A stretch of 36,030 nt of DNA, taken from contig JAKPDW010000073.1 of the NCBI GenBank assembly GCA_029552245.1, positions 1 to 36,030 of the forward strand. Direction: 5' to 3'. How positions within the stretch are numbered: position 1 is the first letter of the stretch; every line of letters starts with the position of its first letter. Origin of the DNA: Deltaproteobacteria bacterium. GTDB taxonomy: Bacteria; Desulfobacterota; Desulfomonilia; UBA1062. The notes beneath the pieces are model-generated. The model saw nothing but the letters and a program-made list of their open reading frames with translations. It did no database searches and was not told where the DNA came from. Positions 25,107 to 36,030 of the stretch are shown one piece after another. A program made the translations under genes and the position numbers.

Positions 25107-27557
25107 TCAGGCTCGATGCCGATCCGCCGCGGCTGCGGAGAGCACCTTCCTCCCGAGGTACAGGGCCGCCAGGACGACCAGGGCGGCCATGCTGACCGCG
25201 AGCCCCGCGTAGAAAGACAGCGGCCGGTACACCATGCTCACCACGTGGGAGCCTGCGGGCACGGGTACGCCCCTGAGGATGAGGTCCGCCTTCACCACAG
25301 GCGCCTCCCTGCCGTCCACGTACGCCCTCCAGCCCGGGTAGAAGAGCTCGCTCAGAATGAGGAGGGAGTTCGTCGGGCTTTGTGTCCTCACCTCGATGCG
25401 CTGTGGCTCGTAGCGCACGACGGTCGCACCCGATGCGCCCTGTCCCCCCTTGGCGGGAGCATCCGGCACCCCCGCTATCAGGCGGTCCTTCTCCTCGAGC
25501 ACGACCGAGCGCGCCGGGTCGAAGCGCGGGTCTTTGAGGTGCGCCAGGGCTTCATCACGGCCGCCTGCATATACCACGTCATGCACGAGCACCGCCCTCG
25601 GCTGGTAAACGGGGGCTTCCTTCGCTAAGATTCCGCCGTTCTCTTCTAGGCACACCGCGTATTTGACCCCCAGGATCCTCGAAGAGAAGACCCTGTCCCC
25701 CAAGAACACCCCGAGCGCCAGCGTGTGCCTCGTCACTGTCATGAGAGGCACGGCGGCCATGTCGTGCACGAAACGGTAGAAGTCCCTGAGCACGATGGGG
25801 TTGTACCCGTTCAGGTTCTGGTATCCCTTGGCCATGCCCCTCAACGGGCTGTACTCGACGTCGAGGTTCGCCGGGTAGGCGACGCGGAAGGCATGTGGCG
25901 TGAAATCCTTGTCCTGCGCGAGGAACCTCTCGATCTCGTTCGGCTCGAGCAGCGTCTTTTCTCTGTGCAGGGGGATAGCCGAGGCGTAGGTCGAAGCGAG
26001 ATCCACGAAGACCAGGAGCACGAGCCCGTAGACAGGGGCCTTCCAGCCCGACCTCAGGGTCCAGACGCAGAGGCCGCAGGCTGCGCAGAGAAAGGCGAAA
26101 GACACAAGGACCTGGCGCGAGAGGATGGGGACGGTAAAGACCAGCGACCCCGCGACGAGGAGCACGAGGATCACCGCCCACGCGCCCGTGACGACCGCCC
26201 CTGCGGTACGCGACCTCGTCCTGTCCATGAGCGAGTCGACCCCCATGCCTGCGAAGACCGCGAGGGTGAGGACCAGGAACACCACGGCCCTCGAAGGTAT
26301 CCGGAACGTTGCGAACCCGGGCACGAGGCCGTAGAGCACGCGGTACAGGGGCGTATAGCTGCCGAGCATGACGACCAGCGAGAGCCCCATGACCGCAAGC
26401 AGCGCGGCCCTCCCCTTCCTGCCACGTGACATGGCCGCGCCCAGGGCAGCCAGCACGACGCCGGCCACGCCCAGGTACCCGGAGAGCTCCCAGCTGAGAA
26501 TGAGTTGCCGGAAGGGGATATGGGCCTCGCCCCACTCGATCGGGGTCAGCTGGGGCTTTGGCACGAGGAAGGTGAAGAGGCACTGGGGCGGGTACGAGAA
26601 CCCGGTGGCGAACGTGTACGACTTCTCGGCCCTGTCGCACAGGCCGAGGAACTCGACCGAAGGGATGACCTGCACCGCAGCCACCGAGAACGCCACGGCC
26701 ATGAAGGCAGCGAACCTCGCGGCAAGGCCGAGGGCGGGTCTTGCCGATGACTTCCGGACCCCGGGAAACCCCCTCACCACGACGTACACCGCGGTGAAAA
26801 ACAGGGTGTAGAACGAGTTCTGAGGCTCTCCGCCGAGGATCTGGATGCCGAAGACGAGCCCCGCGAGCGCGTAATGCCGCCACCGCCCCGAGTCGAGGGC
26901 CTTCTCGAGCGCGAGCAAAACCCACGGGATGAGCGCTGCGGTGTGGATCATGGTGAGGTGCCCGGCGTAGATCTTGTCCATGAAGTAGCCGCACATGCCG
27001 TACGACAGGGCGGAGAATGCCGCCGCAGCCCCGTTCGACGTGAGGCGCATTGTGAGCGCGTACGCGCCGAGGGAGGCCACGAGCACGTGGAGCACGACAT
27101 CCAGGTTGAACGCCCACGGGAGGGGAAGGGTCACGAACAGGAGCGTGGAGGGGTAGAACACGAAGGTCTGCGGGTTGGCCAGGAAGGGGTGACCGCAGTA
27201 GTAGTGCGGGTTCCACAACGGGACCTGCCCGTGGCGGATGCTCTCCCTGGTGAACGTCTCGAACCAGTAGAAGTAGGCCCTCACGTCGATGCCTGCGATG
27301 AAGGCGTCCCCGCGCGGGATCACCTTTACGCCGAAGAACGCGAGCATCAACGTCACGACGAGCACCACCGGCCACGCCCTGCCCCAAAAGGCCATGGCGC
27401 CCGAAGGCAATGCCGGCACCGCGTCCGGGTGCGTCCCCTCTGGGCTTCCCTCGTTCGGTGCGCGAGACGGGCCCCCTTGCACCTCAGGCCTTGTCGCCCG
27501 CTCCTTGACGGCCCTGCCCGCCCCCTTCTCGCCGATACCCTTCTTCCCCGACTTCAC
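25107..27557 (-). CDS. YfhO-like GT-C membrane glycosyltransferase (copy 1)
   Basis: An 816-residue polytopic protein of the YfhO family. After a basic, disordered N-terminus of about 55 residues the first helix is followed by an extracytoplasmic loop with GIDVRAYFYWFETF and VPLWNPHYYCGHPFLANPQ, a YfhO hallmark. About ten more helices follow, then a soluble C-terminal domain with LSELFYPGWRAYVDG and a final helix. YfhO proteins take a sugar from polyprenyl phosphate and add it to a surface polymer. ATG 27557 overlaps the TGA of the paralogous gene upstream. The paralogue and a CsbB-like enzyme at 31341 support this role. Confidence 0.8.
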   Translation of the reverse strand: MKSGKKGIGEKGAGRAVKERATRPEVQGGPSRAPNEGSPEGTHPDAVPALPSGAMAFWGRAWPVVLVVTLMLAFFGVKVIPRGDAFIAGIDVRAYFYWFETFTRESIRHGQVPLWNPHYYCGHPFLANPQTFVFYPSTLLFVTLPLPWAFNLDVVLHVLVASLGAYALTMRLTSNGAAAAFSALSYGMCGYFMDKIYAGHLTMIHTAALIPWVLLALEKALDSGRWRHYALAGLVFGIQILGGEPQNSFYTLFFTAVYVVVRGFPGVRKSSARPALGLAARFAAFMAVAFSVAAVQVIPSVEFLGLCDRAEKSYTFATGFSYPPQCLFTFLVPKPQLTPIEWGEAHIPFRQLILSWELSGYLGVAGVVLAALGAAMSRGRKGRAALLAVMGLSLVVMLGSYTPLYRVLYGLVPGFATFRIPSRAVVFLVLTLAVFAGMGVDSLMDRTRSRTAGAVVTGAWAVILVLLVAGSLVFTVPILSRQVLVSFAFLCAACGLCVWTLRSGWKAPVYGLVLLVFVDLASTYASAIPLHREKTLLEPNEIERFLAQDKDFTPHAFRVAYPANLDVEYSPLRGMAKGYQNLNGYNPIVLRDFYRFVHDMAAVPLMTVTRHTLALGVFLGDRVFSSRILGVKYAVCLEENGGILAKEAPVYQPRAVLVHDVVYAGGRDEALAHLKDPRFDPARSVVLEEKDRLIAGVPDAPAKGGQGASGATVVRYEPQRIEVRTQSPTNSLLILSELFYPGWRAYVDGREAPVVKADLILRGVPVPAGSHVVSMVYRPLSFYAGLAVSMAALVVLAALYLGRKVLSAAAADRHRA

Positions 27558-29923
27558 CGCCTTTTCCCCCCACGCCGTCTTCCCTGAGGCCCGCCTTCCC
27601 TTGGGGCCGCACCGTCATCGCCACCCTGCAGGCCGGCTGGCGCGGCCGCTTCAGGCTCCGCCGAGGGCCTCCTCTTCGCCCACAGCAGGCATGCAGCGAG
27701 GGCGACGAGCGTCACGAGCGTTACGGCGAGGCCGGCCATGAAGCTCGCAGGCCTGTACACCATGGTCACCGCGTGCGTGCCTGCACGCAGCGGTACCGCC
27801 CTGAGCAGGTAGTCGGCCCTGAGGACGGGCGCGCGCTTCCCGTCGACGTATGCCTTCCACCCGGGGTAGTACAGCTCGCTCAAGAGAAGGTATGACGCCA
27901 AAGGGGATGAGGCCTCGATCTCCATCCTGTCAGGCCCGTAGGAGACCATCCTCACCGAGTCCGCAGGCCCCGCATCTTTTCCGGCCTGAGCGATCTCCCC
28001 CAGGTGACCGGGGTCCGCCTTCTCGAGGAGCACGACATCCAGGGGGTCGAACCCCGGGTCTTTGAGTATGGCGAGGTGGTCTCGATAGTCAGGCACCACC
28101 TTCACCTTGTGGACGAGACGGGCCCTCGGCATGTACCAGTCCGCCCGCAGGAGTCGCCACCCCTGGCCTGTCATGGCGACGGCGTACTTGACCCCGAGGA
28201 TCTTCGAGCTGAAGACGCGGCCCTCGGTGAAGACGTCCATGCCGAGCGTGTGCCTGGACATCACGGGCGGCTCCACCCCGGCCATGGCATGGACGAACCG
28301 GTAGTAGTCCATGACCGCTGCCTGCACGTACCCGCCCGCGTTCTCGTACCCCTTCACGTTGCAGCGTGACGCGAGGGGTGAAAGCGGCACTTCGGGATTC
28401 AACGAGATGGGCACCATGACGCGGTAGTCGCCCGCAGGGCCGGCGATGACCTTCTCGAAGTCTTCGTCCCGGGTGAGCTCGGCCTCGTTGATGACCGGTA
28501 TCCCTGGCGCATACACCAGGAAGAGGTCCGCGAACATGAAGAAGAGAACCAGAGCGAGGGCCGGGACCTTCCACTTCCTCAGCGCGAGAGAGGCCACTGC
28601 CGCCGAGCCCAGAAAGACGAACGCGTAGGCGTGGGTCATGGAAGGCGCCAGCAGCGGGACGTCGTAGAAGAGCGGCCCGAAGGCAAGCAGCGCGGCGAGG
28701 ACGAGCCCGGAACAGGAGGCGAGGAGCGCGATCTTCTTCCCGTCGCGCTCTTCCCACAGGTACGAAGCGCCGAAGGACACGAGCAGGGAAAGGAAGAACA
28801 CCGCTATCGTGAGCGCCCGCGCAGGCACCCTGAAATTGCCCAGGAGCGGGATGAACTCGTAGTAGAGCCGGTACAAGGGGGTGTACCCACCCAACACGAA
28901 GGTCATCGTCACCGCGAGCAGCAGGGCGACGACCCATGCCTTCCTCCTGTGTCTTGCCGAAAAGACCCCAATGCCCGCGAGGGCGAGGGCGATGACCCCG
29001 CAGTACCCGCCCAACTCCCAGAACGTGGCGATCTTGCGCGTCTCCGGGTGCGGGACCAGGAGGGTGTACAGGAGTGAACCCCCGAACGACCCGTTCACGG
29101 CGAACTCGTAGGTCTTCTCCGCCCTGTCGGACAGGGCGATGAACTCGGCCACAGGCAGCAGGAATACGGCGGACACGCCGAACGACACGGCGGGCACGAG
29201 GAGAAACCAAAGGCAGTAAGCCGCAAAGCGCTTCAGGCCGGAAAAGCCGAAGCGCGACACGTAGCGCACAGGCAGGTAGAGACACAGCAGCACGCACACG
29301 TAGAAGATGATCTGGGTGTTCCCGGTCAGGATCAGCAGGCCCAGGAGGGCGCCCGCAAGGGCGAACAGGCCGGGCCTGTCCTCCTCGAACACCCGCTCCA
29401 TGGCGAGGAAGACAAAGGGGATAACGGCCGCGGAATGGATGAAGGTGAGGTGGCCTCCGTATATCCTTTCGAACAGCTGGCCGTTGAACGTGTACACGAG
29501 GGCGGCCGTGAGCGCCCCGGCCGAAGAGCCCGTCATGCGGCGCGCCAGCAGGTACATCCCCACCCAGCACGCGAGCAGGTGCAGCACGAGGTCGATGTTG
29601 AAGGCCCAAGCAAGGGGGAAGATCACGTACAGGGCGATCGGCGGGTAGAAGACGAAGTTCGCCGGGTTCGCGGCGAACGGGTGGCCAGAGTACATGTGGG
29701 GGTTCCACAGGGGAAAGGTGCCTGACAGCACGTGATCCTTGAAGAAACGGATGCACCAGTAGTGGTGGTCCTTGACGTCGATGCCGCCTATGAAGGAACC
29801 GCCCAGGGGCAGCGCCCTGGCCTCCAGGAAGGCGCCGACCAGCACAAGGCCCAAAAGGCCGCACGCAAGGACCGGGTGCCGCGCGGGAAAGGACAACCGT
29901 GGGGCCTCACCCATCCCCTTCAC
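27554..29923 (-). CDS. YfhO-like GT-C membrane glycosyltransferase (copy 2)
   Basis: A 789-residue paralogue of the next gene with the same layout: first helix, GIDVKDHHYWCIRFF, FPLWNPHMYSGHPFAANPAN, LALSDRAEKTYEF-like loop, and LSELYYPGWKAYVDGKRAP near the end. The two differ along their whole length, so the duplication is old and the acceptors or donors may differ. The frame starts at GTG 29923; ATG 29914 is an alternative. It lies 66 bases downstream of the aminotransferase. The C-terminal tail after the last helix is charged and rich in glycine and arginine. Confidence 0.8.
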   Translation of the reverse strand: MKGMGEAPRLSFPARHPVLACGLLGLVLVGAFLEARALPLGGSFIGGIDVKDHHYWCIRFFKDHVLSGTFPLWNPHMYSGHPFAANPANFVFYPPIALYVIFPLAWAFNIDLVLHLLACWVGMYLLARRMTGSSAGALTAALVYTFNGQLFERIYGGHLTFIHSAAVIPFVFLAMERVFEEDRPGLFALAGALLGLLILTGNTQIIFYVCVLLCLYLPVRYVSRFGFSGLKRFAAYCLWFLLVPAVSFGVSAVFLLPVAEFIALSDRAEKTYEFAVNGSFGGSLLYTLLVPHPETRKIATFWELGGYCGVIALALAGIGVFSARHRRKAWVVALLLAVTMTFVLGGYTPLYRLYYEFIPLLGNFRVPARALTIAVFFLSLLVSFGASYLWEERDGKKIALLASCSGLVLAALLAFGPLFYDVPLLAPSMTHAYAFVFLGSAAVASLALRKWKVPALALVLFFMFADLFLVYAPGIPVINEAELTRDEDFEKVIAGPAGDYRVMVPISLNPEVPLSPLASRCNVKGYENAGGYVQAAVMDYYRFVHAMAGVEPPVMSRHTLGMDVFTEGRVFSSKILGVKYAVAMTGQGWRLLRADWYMPRARLVHKVKVVPDYRDHLAILKDPGFDPLDVVLLEKADPGHLGEIAQAGKDAGPADSVRMVSYGPDRMEIEASSPLASYLLLSELYYPGWKAYVDGKRAPVLRADYLLRAVPLRAGTHAVTMVYRPASFMAGLAVTLVTLVALAACLLWAKRRPSAEPEAAAPAGLQGGDDGAAPREGGPQGRRRGGKRR

Positions 29924-29989: not shown

Positions 29990-31126
29990 TCACGCGAGAC
30001 CGTAGAATGCCATTACCTCGTGCGCCACCCGCTGCACGTCCTTCTCCCCCATGTCGAAGTAGAGCGGCAGGCGCACCAGGCGCTCGCTCGTCTCCTCCGT
30101 CACGCGCATGGTGGACGATACCCTGCCGTACTTTCTGCCCGCCGGCGACGAGTGCAGCGGCACGTAGTGGAACACGGCGAGGATACCCCTTTCCTTCAGA
30201 CGGCCGATGAGCCTCGTCCGCTCCTCGAGGGATGCCGTGATCAGGTAGAAGATGTGGCCGTTTCCGGCCATGCCTTTGCCGAGGTAGGGCAGACGCGCGC
30301 ACCCCCTGTCCTGGAGCGGCCTCAGGGCGTTGTAGTAGAGGTCGAACAGGAAACGCCTCTTGGCCACGATGCGCTCCGCGTTCTCCATCTGGGCGAAGAG
30401 GAAGGCGCTCACGAGCTCGCTCGGCAGGTAGGACGACCCGATGTCCACCCAGGTGTACTTGTCCACCTCGCCCCTGAAGAACTGCGCCCTGTCCGTGCCC
30501 TTCTCACGGATGATCTCGGCGCGCTTGACGAACCTCTCGTCGTTTACGAGCAGGGCCCCACCCTCTCCGCTTATGATGTTCTTCGTCTCGTGGAAGCTCA
30601 GGCAGCCGAAGGTGCCCAGCGTGCCGAGGTACTTCCCCTCGTACTGGGAGAGGAGCGCCTGGGCTGCGTCCTCGATCACGAGGAGGCCGTGCCTTCGCGC
30701 CACGTCGCAGATCGTGTTCATCTCGCAGGGGACGCCTGCGTAGTGCACGGGCACGACAGCCTTGGTGCGCCGTGTCACGGCCTGTTCGACGAGGGTCTCG
30801 TCCATGTTCAGGGTGTCGGGCCTGATGTCTATGAAGACAGGCACCCCTCCCCTGAGCACGAAGGCGTTCGCGGTGGACACGAAGGTGAACGAGGGCACGA
30901 TCACCTCGTCGCCGGGGCCGATGTCCGCGAGGATGGAGGCCATCTCGATCGCCGCCGTGCAGGAGTGCGTGAGCAGGGCCTTGGTGCAGCCGAGCTTCTC
31001 CTGCAGCCACCCGTGGCATCGCCTCGTGAAGTAGCCGTCGCCCGCGAGCTGGCCCCTGACCACCGCCTGGGCTATGTTGTACAGCTCCCTGCCCGCCACG
31101 AACGGCTTGTTGAACGGAATGTCCAT
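29990..31126 (-). CDS. wecE: dTDP-4-amino-4,6-dideoxygalactose transaminase
   Basis: A 378-residue PLP sugar aminotransferase. It follows E. coli WecE/RffA closely along its length: IPFNKPFVAGREL, LAGDGYFTRRCHGWL, LTHSCTAAIEMA, PGDEVIVPSFTFVSTANAFVLRGG, EDAAQALLS, the PLP lysine K182 in SFHETKN, and REKGTDRAQFFRGEVDKYTW. It would make a 4-amino-4,6-dideoxy sugar nucleotide (Fuc4N type) from the 4-keto sugar. ATG 31126 matches the family N-terminus; ATG 31141 is possible. No wecD-type acetyltransferase or rmlA/rmlB is nearby, so precursor synthesis must be elsewhere. It leads the minus-strand glycan operon. Confidence 0.9.
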   Translation of the reverse strand: MDIPFNKPFVAGRELYNIAQAVVRGQLAGDGYFTRRCHGWLQEKLGCTKALLTHSCTAAIEMASILADIGPGDEVIVPSFTFVSTANAFVLRGGVPVFIDIRPDTLNMDETLVEQAVTRRTKAVVPVHYAGVPCEMNTICDVARRHGLLVIEDAAQALLSQYEGKYLGTLGTFGCLSFHETKNIISGEGGALLVNDERFVKRAEIIREKGTDRAQFFRGEVDKYTWVDIGSSYLPSELVSAFLFAQMENAERIVAKRRFLFDLYYNALRPLQDRGCARLPYLGKGMAGNGHIFYLITASLEERTRLIGRLKERGILAVFHYVPLHSSPAGRKYGRVSSTMRVTEETSERLVRLPLYFDMGEKDVQRVAHEVMAFYGLA

Positions 31127-31219
31127 ATCAAACCCATGCATCCTGCCGGAATCGCTTCACCTATCATTACCTCGCAAACCCCGCATCGTGCAAGTCCGAT
31201 GAGCACCGTTCACAGTACG

Positions 31220-31340: not shown

Positions 31341-32288
31341 ATGCATGACATGAGTGAACGGGCAGTTACGATATCGGTGGTGATACCCGTCTACCAGGCC
31401 GAGGCATGCTTGCATGAACTGCACGAGCGGCTCACCAGTGTATTGAGAACACTGGGGCCGGATTACGAGATCGTTCTCGTCGAAGACAGGGGCCAGGACC
31501 GCTCCTGGGAGGTCATCCGGGAAATCGCCGGGAAAGACCCGAGGGTGAAGGCCGCCAGGCTCAGCAGGAACTTCGGACAGCACCATGCGATCGCCGCCGG
31601 GTTGGACATGTGCAAAGGCGAGTGGGTGGTGATCATGGACTGCGACCTCCAGGACAGGCCCGAAGAGATCCCACGGCTCTACGAAAAGGCACTCTCAGGC
31701 CACGACATCGTGCTGGCGCGAAGAGCGGAAAGGCAGGATGGGGTTGTCAAACGGCTTTTTTCCAAAACCTTCTATGCTGTACTCTCATACCTGACGGAAA
31801 CAAGAATGGATCCCAGCATCGGTTCGTTCCGCATCATGTCCCGCAAGGTCGTACGTGAGCTGTCGAAAATGCACGAGCAGACCAGGTTCTTCGGCGGTCT
31901 CGTCAACTGGCTCGGATTCAGTTCGACCACGGTGGACGTGGAGCACGCGCCCAGGATGCACGGAAAGACCTCCTACAACCTGAAAAAGCTCGTACGCCTG
32001 GCGGTCGGGGCCATTCTCGCCTTTTCCGACAAGCCGTTGAGGCTTGCCGTCCAGCTGGGTTTCCTCATTTCCTTTTTGTCCATGTGCTTCGGGGTATATG
32101 CGGTCATTACCAAGCTGATGCACCCGTCTGTACAGCTCGGCTGGACGAGCCTCATTGTTTCCATATACTTCATGGGCGGTCTCGTGATAGGCGTAATCGG
32201 CATATGCGGGCTGTACATAGGGAAGATCTTCGAAGAGGTGAAGAGGCGACCGCTTTACGTGATAGACGAGAAGATCAATGCCGACTGA
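31341..32288 (+). CDS. CsbB/ArnC-like polyprenyl-phosphate glycosyltransferase (GT2)
   Basis: A 315-residue membrane-anchored glycosyltransferase. The GT2 domain has ISVVIPVYQAEA, the metal-binding MDCDLQDRPEEIP, GSFRIMSRK and the terminal MHGKTSYNLKKL. Two transmembrane helices follow (LAVQLGFLISFLSMCFGVYAV and SLIVSIYFMGGLVIGVIGICG). This architecture is shared by CsbB, ArnC and GtrB, which move a sugar from a nucleotide to polyprenyl phosphate on the cytoplasmic face. In Bacillus CsbB feeds YfhO, and YfhO-like genes are present here. ATG 31341 has GGGGTG upstream; ATG 31350 is possible. Its end overlaps the ATP-grasp gene by 11 bases. Confidence 0.88.
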   Translation: MHDMSERAVTISVVIPVYQAEACLHELHERLTSVLRTLGPDYEIVLVEDRGQDRSWEVIREIAGKDPRVKAARLSRNFGQHHAIAAGLDMCKGEWVVIMDCDLQDRPEEIPRLYEKALSGHDIVLARRAERQDGVVKRLFSKTFYAVLSYLTETRMDPSIGSFRIMSRKVVRELSKMHEQTRFFGGLVNWLGFSSTTVDVEHAPRMHGKTSYNLKKLVRLAVGAILAFSDKPLRLAVQLGFLISFLSMCFGVYAVITKLMHPSVQLGWTSLIVSIYFMGGLVIGVIGICGLYIGKIFEEVKRRPLYVIDEKINAD

Positions 32289-33480
32289 CTCGACCAAGAG
32301 AATCATGATAGTGGCAGGCGGAGAATGGCAGGTCCCGCTCATCAGGAAGGCCAAGGACATGGGGCTGTTCGTCGTGAACACGAACCTCTACGAGGACTCG
32401 CCCGGCTTCAGGTACGCCGACGTGGGAGTCGTTGCAGACGTGCTCGACAAAGAACGAAACCTCGAGATCGCGAGGAAGTACCGGCCTGATGCCATCGTCA
32501 CGGACCAGACAGACATCGCAGTCCCGACCGTTGCCTACCTTTGCGAAAAGATGCGCCTGCCCGGGATCGGCATGAGGGCCGCGACCCTCTTCACCGACAA
32601 GTACGCCATGAGGACGTTCCTGAAAGATCACGGGTTCTCCACGCCCGCATTCATGCTCTGCAAAACAATGGAAGACGCATTGGAGTTCGCTGATGAACAC
32701 GGATACCCCTTGGTCATAAAGCCACCGGCCAGCCAATCGAGCAGGGGGGTGCACAAGGTGACGTCTGAGGAAGACCTCCGTGCAAGCTACACGGACACCC
32801 TGAGGTTCAGCCCTGCGGGATGCATCCTCGCGGAGGAGTACATCGAAGGCGTAGAGTTCACGGTCGAGGGGTTCAAGACAGCGGAAAAGGCCTACTCGCT
32901 CGTGGTATCGAAAAAGAGGCCGTTCAGGCACTCGGAGATGATAGCATCGCGGCTTCTCTACCGCCACTGGGACCCGGACTTCGATTATCCCCAGCTCATG
33001 GAACTCAACGAGCGGATCGTCACCTGTATGGGCCTGCCCTTCGGCATCACACATGCCGAGTACAAGTGTCGAGACGGGACGTTCTACCTCATCGAGATAG
33101 CGGCCCGCGGGGGAGGGACGAAGATATCGTCTCACATCGTCCCCGAGATGACGGGTCTCGATATAAACGAGCTCCTCATCAGGTGCGCCTTGGGAGAGCA
33201 CATAACCGAGATCCACTTCGAACGCAGGGACCACTGTGTCGTCCTCGAGTTCCTTCTGTTCGACCCCGGAAAGGTCGCGTCAATCTCCGGCATCGATTGG
33301 CTCTCTTCGAACGACTCGATCATCGACTTCGGCCTGAACTTCGGTGTGGGAGACGTGCTTGCCCCGCCGTCAGACGACAGGTCTCGGCACGCCTACCTCA
33401 TCGCGAGGGCTGAAACGCCGGGGGACATAGAAAGGATCCTGAACGAGGCAAGGACAAGGGTGACCATCACGTACGCATAA
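32278..33480 (+). CDS. ATP-grasp carboxylate-amine ligase-like protein
   Basis: A 400-residue enzyme. The N-terminal pre-ATP-grasp domain begins IMIVAGGEWQVPLIRKAKDMG. The ATP-grasp fold follows: YPLVIKPPASQSSRGVHKV (phosphate loop and lysine), CILAEEYIEGVEFTVEGF, and FYLIEIAARGGGTKISSHIVPEMTG. The last motif has the E-x-A-x-R form of amino-acid ligases in place of the common E-x-N-x-R. It probably activates a carboxylate as acyl phosphate and joins it to an amine; the amino sugar made by WecE is an attractive acceptor, but neither substrate can be read from the sequence. It overlaps the glycosyltransferase by 11 bases. Confidence 0.78.
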   Translation: MPTDSTKRIMIVAGGEWQVPLIRKAKDMGLFVVNTNLYEDSPGFRYADVGVVADVLDKERNLEIARKYRPDAIVTDQTDIAVPTVAYLCEKMRLPGIGMRAATLFTDKYAMRTFLKDHGFSTPAFMLCKTMEDALEFADEHGYPLVIKPPASQSSRGVHKVTSEEDLRASYTDTLRFSPAGCILAEEYIEGVEFTVEGFKTAEKAYSLVVSKKRPFRHSEMIASRLLYRHWDPDFDYPQLMELNERIVTCMGLPFGITHAEYKCRDGTFYLIEIAARGGGTKISSHIVPEMTGLDINELLIRCALGEHITEIHFERRDHCVVLEFLLFDPGKVASISGIDWLSSNDSIIDFGLNFGVGDVLAPPSDDRSRHAYLIARAETPGDIERILNEARTRVTITYA

Positions 33481-33516
33481 AAGGAATCTCAACACATAAG
33501 CGAAGGGGGTACAACG

Positions 33517-34173
33517 GTGGATTCCCACGAGTGGAAGGAAAAGATCATCGATTACATCAAGAGAAACAGGGTCTCCTCCACCGAGGTGGCGGACTGCCTC
33601 GGTAAGACCGGCGCCGTGCCGGATGTCAGGCCCATAAGCGAAGGACATTTCAGGGTCGGGAACGTCTTCTGGGCGTATGCCTACGGAGAGAGCAACTGGG
33701 ATGTGCACGAACGGCTCCAGCACGTACAGGAGGGCGACGTGGCCCTCGTAGAGGTGTTCGACTGCAAGGACAGGGCCGTTTTCGGTGACCTCGTGTCCAA
33801 GTTCCTCATCCTGTACAGGCAGGTCTCGGCGATCGTGGTGAGGGGGTATCTCAGGGACGCACACCGTCTCATCAAAGAACGATGGCCGATATGGTGCACG
33901 GGGTTCAACCCTGTCGGGTGCTTCAACCAGAAGGTCGACACCCCCTTCGACCGAGACACCTTCGAAGACCGTCTGAGACGGTACCACGGGGCGATCGGCG
34001 TGTGCGACGATACGGGCGTGGTCATCATCCCCAAGGAGCATCATACCGAGGAGTTCTTCCATAAGCTCGAGTTCATAGAACAGCAGGAAGACATCTGGTA
34101 CGAGTGCATCGACAGGAGAAAATGGACGACCTTCGAGACGGTGTGCCTCAAGAAGTATGCAGACAAGGCCTGA
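33517..34173 (+). CDS. RraA-like / HMG-CHA aldolase-fold protein
   Basis: A 218-residue protein with the RraA fold. The N-terminal VSSTEVADCLGKTGAV matches the start of RraA and of 4-hydroxy-4-methyl-2-oxoglutarate aldolases. The substrate region FGDLVSKFLILYRQVSAIVVRG is followed by the conserved R-D pair in YLRDAHRL, then WPIWCTGFNPVG. The R-D pair is needed for metal and oxo-acid binding in the aldolases, so an enzyme is plausible; RraA proper is an RNase E inhibitor and is less likely in this setting. An extra C-terminal part of about 60 residues is not in the core family. GTG 33517 has GGGGG upstream. Confidence 0.7.
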   Translation: MDSHEWKEKIIDYIKRNRVSSTEVADCLGKTGAVPDVRPISEGHFRVGNVFWAYAYGESNWDVHERLQHVQEGDVALVEVFDCKDRAVFGDLVSKFLILYRQVSAIVVRGYLRDAHRLIKERWPIWCTGFNPVGCFNQKVDTPFDRDTFEDRLRRYHGAIGVCDDTGVVIIPKEHHTEEFFHKLEFIEQQEDIWYECIDRRKWTTFETVCLKKYADKA

Positions 34174-34196
34174 AACAGGAGGCGGCAGGGCAGGAA

Positions 34197-35036
34197 ATGC
34201 ACAGCGATGAGACAGGGCGCGGGGAACCCACCCCCGTTGTTCCCATCTTCGACGCGCTGACACATCCCACCATCACCGGGGGGTGGACCCCCGGGCGCCC
34301 TCAGACATCGGCCCACATGGACCGCCTGAAGGAGCAGATGGATCTTCATGACGTGAAGTGGGCCCTGGCCGTTGGCATGGAAGGGATCGGCGGCTATGCC
34401 GAAGACGAGTTCGCCAGTTTCGTGAGAAGGGGCTCGGACAGGCTCTTGCCAGTGGCGTTCTTGAACCCTTCACGGTTCGGCCCACGCAGGGATCTTTCCC
34501 GCCATGTCTCCTCCTTGAGAGACAAGGGGTACGTCGGGATAAAGATCCACCCGAGGCTTTCCCACACCCCCCTTACCCACCCGAACCTCCCGGCGGCCGT
34601 GAACGAGGCGGCAGAACAGGGCCTGGTGACCCTCATTTGTACGTATCCGTATGCCCCCGGGATGGACAGGGACACATACGCCCTGGACGCGCTCGTGTCC
34701 CTCCTCGACAAGACGAAAGGGTGCAAGGTGATCCTCCTTCATGCCGGTTGCGTGCGTCTCCTCGAGATGATCGAGATCGCGAGGCTCTTCGACGACGTTC
34801 TCCTGGATCTTTCCTTCACCATCTGCAAGTACGCGGGAAGCTCCATCGACCTGGACATAGCCTATGCGTTCAGGCAATTTGACAGGAGGGTATGCATAGG
34901 TTCCGACTTCCCGGAGTTCGATCTCAAGCTTTTGAGAGAGCGGTTCAGTGCATTTGCCGACGGCCTTCCCGGAGAGAAGATCGAGAACATCGCCTACAAG
35001 AACTTGCTGAACTTCATGGGAGACATCGTACTATGA
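34197..35036 (+). CDS. Amidohydrolase-2-like TIM-barrel protein with an altered metal site
   Basis: A 279-residue protein of the amidohydrolase_2 superfamily, which includes decarboxylases, hydratases and lactonases acting on oxo acids. Seen are D19-ALT-H23 (FDALTHPT), KIHPRLS, VILLHAGC and GSDFPEF with D237 at the last strand. The usual H-x-H of strand 1 is L-x-H, so one metal ligand is missing; the metal site must be mononuclear and altered, or lost. ATG 34197 is 23 bases after the RraA-like gene, with AGGAGG upstream. Its stop overlaps the methyltransferase start (ATGA). RraA-like and amidohydrolase proteins also occur together in 4,5-protocatechuate pathways. Confidence 0.7.
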   Translation: MHSDETGRGEPTPVVPIFDALTHPTITGGWTPGRPQTSAHMDRLKEQMDLHDVKWALAVGMEGIGGYAEDEFASFVRRGSDRLLPVAFLNPSRFGPRRDLSRHVSSLRDKGYVGIKIHPRLSHTPLTHPNLPAAVNEAAEQGLVTLICTYPYAPGMDRDTYALDALVSLLDKTKGCKVILLHAGCVRLLEMIEIARLFDDVLLDLSFTICKYAGSSIDLDIAYAFRQFDRRVCIGSDFPEFDLKLLRERFSAFADGLPGEKIENIAYKNLLNFMGDIVL

Positions 35037-35713
35037 AACTTTCCGGCCATGATGTCGACCTCGTCATCACCAGGTACAGGGAACGGCTCGGCAGATACGG
35101 GTACTCACCCAAGACCCTGGGGTGGGACAAGGGCAAGCAGGAGGTCAGGTTCGAGATGCTCACATCGCTCCACGAGTGCGAAGGCAAAAGCTTTCTCGAC
35201 ATCGGGTGCGGGTTCGGAGACCTCGTCCTTACCCTGGAGAAGAAGTGCTCATCGTTTCGCTACTACGGTATCGACCTCGTGCCCGACCTGGTGGAGATCG
35301 CTCGACAGAGGCACGCGAAAGCACACTGCCGCTTTGCGGCCATGGATTTCCTCGAGGCGACGATCGACGAGACCTTTGACATAGGCATAGCTTCCGGGGT
35401 GTTCAACTTCAGGCTCGAGAGGGGTGACAACTACGCCTTCGTGAGGGCGGTCATGGAAAAGGCCCTTAGCCTGTGTTCGGAAGGCATAGCGTTCGACTTC
35501 CTGTCCGACAAGGTGGACTACAGGTATGAGCACACCTTTCACTACAGCCCGGAGAGGATCCTCGAGATGGGCTACTCGTTCTCGCGCAACGTCGTGTTGA
35601 GAAACGACTATATGCCCTTCGAGTTCTGCCTGTTCATCTTCAAGGACGACTCCTTCTCCAAGGACGACACCCTCTTCAACCGCTACAAGAGGTTTTCCCC
35701 CGGAAAGCGGTGA
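35033..35713 (+). CDS. SAM-dependent methyltransferase, class I
   Basis: A 226-residue enzyme with a Rossmann-fold SAM-binding domain: motif I FLDIGCGFGDLVL (residues about 54-66), motif II YYGIDLVPDLVEIA with the acidic residue for the ribose, and FAAMDFLE. Later come IGIASGVFNF and the helical SPERILEMGYSFS. It starts at ATG 35033 in an ATGA overlap, so it is translationally coupled to the amidohydrolase-like gene. In this operon it most likely O- or N-methylates a sugar or its acyl decoration. It is the last gene before the insertion sequence, only 20 bases from its end. Confidence 0.82.
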   Translation: MKLSGHDVDLVITRYRERLGRYGYSPKTLGWDKGKQEVRFEMLTSLHECEGKSFLDIGCGFGDLVLTLEKKCSSFRYYGIDLVPDLVEIARQRHAKAHCRFAAMDFLEATIDETFDIGIASGVFNFRLERGDNYAFVRAVMEKALSLCSEGIAFDFLSDKVDYRYEHTFHYSPERILEMGYSFSRNVVLRNDYMPFEFCLFIFKDDSFSKDDTLFNRYKRFSPGKR

Positions 35714-35733
35714 ACACTGGAACCACTTGGTAG

Positions 35734-35875
35734 TGTCAAGATTCTCTCGCACTTTTGAATCAGGTCTCTGTCCTTCGGAGTAGTGCCTCCTGTTCTACGT
35801 GATATCCCTTTATCCGAGGCTTATGGTGGCCATCCCTTCGCCGTCTTTCTGCTTCACTACGAGTATGGGTCAGGG
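35734..35875 (-). mobile_element. End of an insertion sequence, inverted relative to the one at 1-134
   Basis: Starts TGTCAAGATTCT with CGCACTTTTGAATCAGG and closely follows the inverted sequence of 1-134. The terminus is intact and faces the glycan cluster. Similarity ends about 35873, where different sequence begins, so the body has been replaced or interrupted. Confidence 0.65.
35810..35872 (-). pseudogene. Transposase C-terminal tail, truncated
   Basis: On the minus strand TGA at 35872-35870 is followed by an open stretch encoding PILVVKQKDGEGMATISLG and a TAA at 35812-35810. It is the equivalent of the tail at 2-73, but the in-frame TGA and the loss of similarity upstream show that the rest of this copy is gone. 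Confidence 0.5.
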
Positions 35876-35936
35876 TTGGGTAAATACTGCGATAACGTAA
35901 AATATTTTTCGCACTTTCTGGTTTGTCATTGAAAAA

Positions 35937-35992
35937 GGTCCTCCATTCGGAGAGAAGGATTTTGGGTAAAAAACTCTAACCGAAGGAGGACC
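35937..35992 (+). promoter_or_regulatory. Hairpin that sequesters the ribosome binding site of the IS ORF
   Basis: GGTCCTCCATTCGG (35937-35950) pairs with CCGAAGGAGGACC (35980-35992) with one unpaired base, around a 29-base loop. The second arm contains the GGAGG that would start translation at ATG 35997. Such a structure would block translation of transposase from read-through transcripts. Confidence 0.6.
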
Positions 35993-35996
35993 GTTG

Positions 35997-36030
35997 ATGA
36001 GTAAGAGGAAGGGTAATGACGGGGCGTGTT
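35997..36030 (+). CDS. N-terminus of a probable transposase (partial)
   Basis: An ORF beginning MSKRKGNDGAC continues off the right edge. AAGGAGG lies just upstream, inside the hairpin at 35937-35992. Identification as a transposase comes only from its place next to an insertion-sequence terminus. Confidence 0.4.
   Translation, partial: MSKRKGNDGAC

Follow-up and report, generated by a model that had tools for sequence, protein, structure and literature searches.

Which pathway is served by the four genes for an ATP-grasp, an RraA-like, an amidohydrolase_2 and a methyltransferase protein near the end of the deltaproteobacterial contig JAKPDW010000073.1 (assembly GCA_029552245.1)? The contig, 36,030 nucleotides long, was analysed in its entirety (hereafter the window; Table 1). 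The original prediction, made from its letters alone, described a tailoring cassette in which, as one model, a small carboxylic acid is shaped and then coupled to an amino sugar by the ATP-grasp protein. We consider that an RraA-family pyruvate aldolase may build the acyl skeleton, and that the ATP-grasp ligase may join it to the 4-amino group of nucleoside diphosphate (NDP)-4-amino-4,6-dideoxysugars, in a pathway spread across phyla. We assign this reading a probability of about 0.42.

A ligase and aldolase-like gene pair recurs across phyla

When the RraA-like protein was scanned against one genome per species, 13 loci were found, in Hydrogenedentota, Lachnospiraceae, Bacteroidales and one deltaproteobacterium. 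A homologue of the ATP-grasp protein directly precedes the RraA gene in all 13, with 38‒61% identity along most of the protein. Another five divergent loci (L020 and L028‒L031) came from broader sampling, which brings the total to 19 loci with the window included, every one found with RraA as the query. The RraA and ATP-grasp genes lie beside or near each other in all 18 loci other than the window, in several phyla, and they adjoin in the first 13 and in L029 and L031. Relatives in which the four genes are always apart, named in the original prediction as evidence against a common pathway, were not seen. The gene order of the window, from a glycosyltransferase family 2 (GT2) gene through the four cassette genes, is repeated in the Hydrogenedentota locus L003, where a class I aminotransferase, two small membrane proteins, and a WecE equivalog come next. 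All four cassette families are present in L020, L028, and L030, in differing orders and with other genes interspersed, three of them in L031, and two, together with a DegT transaminase, in L029. An amidohydrolase occurs in 6 of the 19 loci and a methyltransferase in 5, leaving ATP-grasp and RraA as the constant core.

As a control against chance, whole genomes of 3‒6 Mb were searched with the two less constant proteins. The best amidohydrolase match falls in the RraA locus in five of five distant genomes (G296, G297, G363, G475, and G730), and the best methyltransferase match does so in four of them (all except G730). These matches lie a few kilobases from RraA, in permuted order. Since the best matches across genomes of this size land in the RraA locus, the clustering cannot reasonably be coincidence, and since the four families stay together though their order is shuffled, they seem to serve one pathway, as had been proposed. 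The module is almost certainly real.

The RraA subfamily is rare: sampling of its own phylum yielded it in 2 of 297, of the family of G302 in 4 of 299, of the order of G306 in 2 of 247, and of the phyla of G309 and G297 in 1 of 247 and 1 of 68, respectively. No relatives were found in a plasmid collection (tblastn, E 1e-15) or in viral contigs. Two of the loci contain further genes close to the pair. In L010, a second ATP-grasp protein (ATPgrasp_ST; 8641‒9789) follows RraA and is itself followed by a Glyco_transf_99 protein, and homologues of this second ATP-grasp protein are present in L009 and L011. An 882-amino-acid protein with a SIR2-like domain, possibly a defence gene, is encoded just upstream of the pair in L011 (3940‒6588).

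The RraA-like protein resembles a pyruvate aldolase

The RraA-like protein is the sole PF03737 protein of its genome (66.4 bits, cut-off 24.5). Its best match in a profile search of the PDB is 3noj (E 2.3e-11), an aldolase for 4-hydroxy-4-methyl-2-oxoglutarate and 4-carboxy-4-hydroxy-2-oxoadipate (HMG/CHA aldolase). The predicted model, with a predicted local distance difference test (pLDDT) score of 95, has the same structure as its best fold match (Z 19.7, root-mean-square deviation 2.5 Å over 194 residues), followed by the RraA-like structures 3k4i (Z 19.1) and 5x15 (Z 18.3), and true RraA proteins reach a Z of only about 14. The additional C-terminus that the original prediction had remarked on belongs to the longer, aldolase-type branch. 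On the other hand, the curated HMG/CHA aldolase cut-offs are missed by a wide margin, with 47.1 vs 179 bits for NF006731 (CHA aldolase) and 42.7 vs 304.5 bits for TIGR02798 (LigK/PcmE).

Asn60, His64, Arg113, Asp114, and Gly134 are invariant in 18 sequences and correspond to Asn71, His75, Arg123, Asp124, and Gly144 of the HMG/CHA aldolase. In the Pseudomonas enzyme, Arg123, Asn71, and Gly144 are needed for activity, and Asp124 and Glu199 bind the metal (PMC5065237). An invariant E-x-Q-E-D motif (residues 188‒192) lies roughly where Glu199 would be expected. The position of Thr145 is occupied by Cys.

Of the four proteins, RraA varies least, with 48‒71% identity to the window protein in the loci with a fuller set. 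In loci where the ligase drops to 29‒32% identity, RraA still retains 48‒57%, a pattern that would suit a constant acid and a variable amine. Whether the RraA-like protein makes the acid by aldol chemistry seems to us an evenly balanced question.

An L-amino-acid-ligase-type protein and two less constant partners

The ATP-grasp protein scores above the cut-offs for PF13535 (ATP-grasp_4, 50.7 bits) and PF18603 (LAL_C2, 51.6 bits), and its best PDB relatives are the L-amino acid ligase BL00235 (3vot, 3.7e-19) and 4dim (1.3e-18). The catalytic E-x-A-x-R-G-G motif is intact at position 273 and kept in most relatives. Judged by its sequence, the protein is of the L-amino-acid-ligase type, in agreement with the ligase role originally proposed.

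The amidohydrolase (PF04909, 33.0 bits, cut-off 26.4) had no match in a single-sequence search of the PDB, whereas profile and fold searches did find matches. Its model (pLDDT 87) is a TIM barrel closest to 3cjp (Z 25.4) and 3irs (Z 25.2). His23, His182, and Asp237 are invariant. The D-x-H-x-H motif reads D-A/S-L-T-H in the window, L003, and L031, with Leu for the first His, and both His residues are present in L020, L028, and L030. The methyltransferase scores 46.6 bits on PF13649 (cut-off 27).

Amino-sugar genes surround the module

The WecE-class transaminase of the window scores 593.4 bits on NF008687 (cut-off 375) and 565.5 bits on TIGR02379 (cut-off 434.85). WecE equivalogs are also found in L003, L006, and L015, likewise as a neighbour of the cassette in L003 and L015. 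L028 encodes PseC (537.8 bits, cut-off 423.5) and PseG (186.9 bits, cut-off 153.55), and L030 encodes PseB (531.7 bits, cut-off 407.75), PseG (194.9 bits), and a NeuB-family protein. The suspected link to amino sugars was therefore borne out in several loci. Within the stretches examined, a DegT-class transaminase is present, as a raw count, in 11 of the 19 loci, window included. Three further loci (L008, L030, and L031) have a NeuB-family synthase and no DegT, L008 being assigned by clustering with the NeuB group, and L007 and L014 have a formyltransferase instead of either. The transaminases of L010 and L012 are DesI-like but below the cut-off. Every transaminase resolved by curated models introduces the amino group at position 4 of a 4,6-dideoxysugar.

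The genome of the window also encodes RmlB (475.8 bits, cut-off 365.1), which supplies the substrate of WecE. Since WecE is in the window, RmlB is in the genome, and 4-aminotransferases recur among the relatives, the amine acceptor in the window is most likely deoxythymidine diphosphate (dTDP)-4-amino-4,6-dideoxygalactose (dTDP-Fuc4N). We consider that the module probably serves amino-sugar acylation.

Two pseudaminic acid loci carry additional modifying genes. In L028, a PIG-L deacetylase and a GNAT protein (6836‒7992) are located beside PseB/PseC and the cassette, which hints that an acetyl group is taken off before re-acylation. In the pseudaminic acid cluster of L030, a radical SAM/SPASM protein (3749‒4879) is encoded between the methyltransferase and ATP-grasp genes.

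The GT2 protein scores 104.5 bits on PF00535, and its scores for PgfS (NF047588, 244 bits) and ArnC (NF007986, 192 bits) are both below the equivalog cut-offs. A GT2 gene adjoins the cassette in L003, L015, and L020 and is nearby in L004‒L008 and L014. The two YfhO genes of the window are paralogous (E ~1e-161), and a rough count gives about 13 hydrophobic segments in the product of the one at 27554..29923. Tandem YfhO paralogues by a Fuc4N transaminase possibly represent a Gram-negative transfer system similar to CsbB/YfhO. In L003, the two small membrane proteins encoded side by side after the class I aminotransferase and before WecE (9070‒9811) resemble an ArnE/ArnF flippase pair, the second alone being above the EamA Pfam cut-off.

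Proposed pathway and alternatives

In the pathway that we propose, the RraA-like aldolase would combine pyruvate with a carbonyl partner to give a 4-hydroxy-2-oxo acid, which the methyltransferase and, in some manner, the amidohydrolase-fold protein would tailor. The ATP-grasp ligase would activate the carboxylate as an acyl phosphate and link it as an amide to the 4-amino group of dTDP-Fuc4N, supplied by RmlB and WecE. This step is suggested by the protein family, the genetic linkage, and the recurring 4-aminotransferase context. From their families, the GT2 protein is expected to move the acylated sugar onto a polyprenyl-phosphate carrier, and the YfhO-type proteins to pass it to an envelope polymer or protein. 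A 2-oxo acid would also explain the aldo-keto and short-chain reductases of L028 and L030 or the class I aminotransferase beside the pair in L003, L009, L010, and L013, since each converts a 2-oxo group. We infer the aldol direction and the role of the amidohydrolase, the latter appearing to be the weakest point of the model. That an aldolase-built acid is tailored, ligated to Fuc4N, and loaded onto a carrier seems to us somewhat better than an even chance, and any particular acid as the product is doubtful. The earlier idea of an acid that is made and ligated to an amino sugar holds for the module, its amino-sugar context, and the intact ligase, but the amidohydrolase and methyltransferase belong to it only in a subset of loci. 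Its other proposals, an acid shaped by RraA jointly with the amidohydrolase and a methylation that closes the pathway, are conjectural.

Several observations weigh against this pathway. Lys147 of the HMG/CHA aldolase is essential for HMG cleavage, and K147A loses ~1000-fold in kcat (PMC5065237). Its position is an invariant Asn (Asn137) in the RraA-like proteins, so a different acceptor is expected and perhaps even a different reaction. In the amidohydrolase of the window, one metal-ligand His, the first of HxH, is missing, which leaves its HxH/His/Asp metal site incomplete. The linkage to sugars is inferred from the neighbourhood, on raw counts of 4-aminotransferases taken with no baseline for polysaccharide loci, and the stretches examined around L005, L011, and L020 showed no recognisable amino-sugar gene. 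The GNAT protein of L028 means that the ATP-grasp step may not substitute for PseH there.

The Asn at the Lys147 position also fits an alternative in which the ligase couples an ordinary amino acid, giving a peptidyl-amido sugar, and the RraA-like protein is a decarboxylase or another enzyme that builds no skeleton. The LAL_C2 domain with its L-amino acid ligase relatives and the class I aminotransferases beside the pair in four loci are consistent with this, as is the oxaloacetate decarboxylation by HMG/CHA aldolases that their family name records. However, the conservation of RraA above that of the ligase would be odd for a side activity, and no common amino acid requires an RraA protein. 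RraA is also present in every locus, though by construction, since it was the query. We regard this alternative as rather unlikely. Another arrangement would place RraA and the amidohydrolase after the ligase, where they would act on the acylated nucleotide sugar by retro-aldol trimming or pyroglutamate-like cyclisation. The amidohydrolase fold is common to cyclising enzymes such as dihydroorotase, and cyclic oxoprolyl acyl groups on amino sugars exist, as in Vibrio anguillarum V-123 (PMC10609480). Yet function cannot be read from a fold alone, a metal-ligand His is missing from the window protein, and most loci have RraA without the amidohydrolase, which makes this order of events quite improbable.

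RraA-like and amidohydrolase_2 folds also meet in protocatechuate 4,5-cleavage, a parallel drawn in the original prediction that stands in chemistry only, neither protein falling within those curated families. Together with the similarity to LigK-type aldolases, this could mean that a LigJ/LigK-like set for degrading aromatic or oxo acids lies beside sugar genes by accident. The scores far below the LigK/PcmE and CHA aldolase cut-offs, the absence of ring-cleavage genes among the window proteins scanned, and the fact that the set turns up in the sugar loci of several phyla make such an accident very improbable. Less credible still is a regulator of RNase E like Escherichia coli RraA, which has the fold in common: the aldolase is closer in sequence and fold, its C-terminus and active-site residues are kept, and the gene is genetically tied to a ligase; we rate this lowest of all. 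The synthesis of an acyl group by the aldolase and its attachment by the ligase remain our preferred explanation.

Gene layout of the window

The open reading frames agree with the head-to-tail arrangement originally described, with gaps of 36 bp and 23 bp and then an ATGA overlap, all on the + strand. All four families are above their Pfam cut-offs. Since the 3′ end of the GT2 gene overlaps the ATP-grasp gene by 11 bp, the co-directional run comprises five genes rather than the four first counted. The WecE-class transaminase and the two YfhO genes are divergent from this run. The contig ends 317 bp past the methyltransferase gene in a repeat with 16 matches in its own genome, some at the ends of other contigs. 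This repeat is likely a mobile element that cuts off the view of the operon, which may extend further. Elsewhere in the window, a corrinoid methyltransferase-like set (3949‒8269) consists of a RACo-type activator, two URO-D proteins, and a B12-binding protein.

Table 1 Features at the cassette end of the window
Feature	Position	Strand	Details
Second YfhO-family membrane protein	25107..27557	-	PF09586 74.6 bits
YfhO-family membrane protein, candidate for transferring sugar off a lipid carrier	27554..29923	-	PF09586 67 bits
WecE-class dTDP-4-amino-4,6-dideoxygalactose transaminase	29990..31141	-	NF008687, TIGR02379 above cut-offs
GT2 polyprenyl-phosphate glycosyltransferase, PgfS/ArnC-like (by family)	31341..32288	+	PF00535; NF047588, NF007986 below equivalog cut-offs
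ATP-grasp carboxylate-amine ligase, L-amino-acid-ligase type	32278..33480	+	400 amino acids; PF13535, PF18603
RraA-like putative class II pyruvate aldolase (HMG/CHA-aldolase branch)	33517..34173	+	GTG start, 218 amino acids; PF03737
Amidohydrolase_2 TIM-barrel protein	34197..35036	+	279 amino acids; PF04909; D-A-L-T-H replaces D-x-H-x-H
Class I S-adenosylmethionine (SAM) methyltransferase	35033..35713	+	226 amino acids; Methyltransf_25 PF13649
Repeated, mobile-element-like sequence at contig end	35714..36030	.	16 own-genome matches to 35720-36030

Implications and comparison with known systems

For decades, chemical work has described unusual N-acyl groups on the amino sugars of bacterial surfaces and flagella, and few of the genes for making them are known. 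The occurrence of the aldolase-ligase pair across phyla, in Fuc4N and pseudaminic acid loci, provides a short gene list for such pathways, and the RraA subfamily provides a marker gene for finding more of them. If our reading is correct, the RraA/HMG-aldolase fold, otherwise known from catabolism and RNA regulation, would here serve biosynthesis, and orphan acyl groups such as the 2-methoxy-trihydroxyhexanoyl of pseudaminic acid or the trimethylpyroglutamoyl of viosamine would be explained. The acylation of surface amino sugars through ATP-grasp proteins, with methyltransferases, is already known; what appears from the sequences to be new is a possible built-in aldolase route to the acid. No description of the gene combination was found in the open literature searched, and a 2026 survey of Clostridium pseudaminic acid loci does not mention ATP-grasp, aldolase, or amidohydrolase.

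The RraA-like protein shares its fold, C-terminal extension, and pyruvate-enolising residues with the HMG/CHA aldolases of the LigK/GalC type (3noj), but differs from them in gene context, in the Lys147 and Thr145 replacements, and in falling short of the curated cut-offs. ArnC and CsbB-PgfS-YfhO are lipid-carrier sugar transfer systems. The window resembles them in its GT2 polyprenyl-phosphate transferase and YfhO-type membrane proteins, to which it adds Fuc4N genes and an acylation cassette.

The closest parallels to the ligase step are flagellin glycosylation gene clusters. In the type B flagellin glycan locus of Clostridioides difficile (CDR20291_0242-0247), the ATP-grasp_4 protein CDR20291_0245 is needed for the terminal peptidylamido sugar (PMC5207246). 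A sugar aminotransferase (FdtB-like) likewise stands alongside the ATP-grasp_4 gene there, whereas aldolase and amidohydrolase are absent and the substituent is of the amino-acid type. The Shewanella oneidensis sfmABCDE operon combines a methyltransferase (sfmD) with an ATP-grasp protein (sfmE), and a methylated 236‒264 Da group is carried on the nonulosonic acid (PMC3765264). A SAM methyltransferase and an ATP-grasp_4 protein are thus found in one operon, accompanied, as in L028 and L030, by NeuB-family and short-chain reductase genes. However, the sfm operon has an IlvB-like thiamine pyrophosphate (TPP) enzyme and no RraA-like or amidohydrolase gene, and the role of sfmE there is not proven. 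Conversely, Sfm-type NeuB-family, TPP enzyme, and reductase genes are absent among the window proteins scanned.

Two known acyl groups are suggestive of the proposed chemistry. The FlaB glycan of Treponema denticola reportedly contains pseudaminic acid with a 2-methoxy-4,5,6-trihydroxyhexanoyl group at N7, the nitrogen that stems from the PseC amino group. Such an acyl group would be expected from pyruvate aldol addition to glyceraldehyde, followed by reduction, O-methylation, and amide formation, and we take it as a lead. In Vibrio anguillarum V-123, viosamine carries a 2,4-dihydroxy-3,3,4-trimethylpyroglutamoyl group (PMC10609480). Its skeleton can be read as 4-hydroxy-4-methyl-2-oxoglutarate that has gained two C-methyl groups and cyclised onto the amide nitrogen, which gives a second lead.

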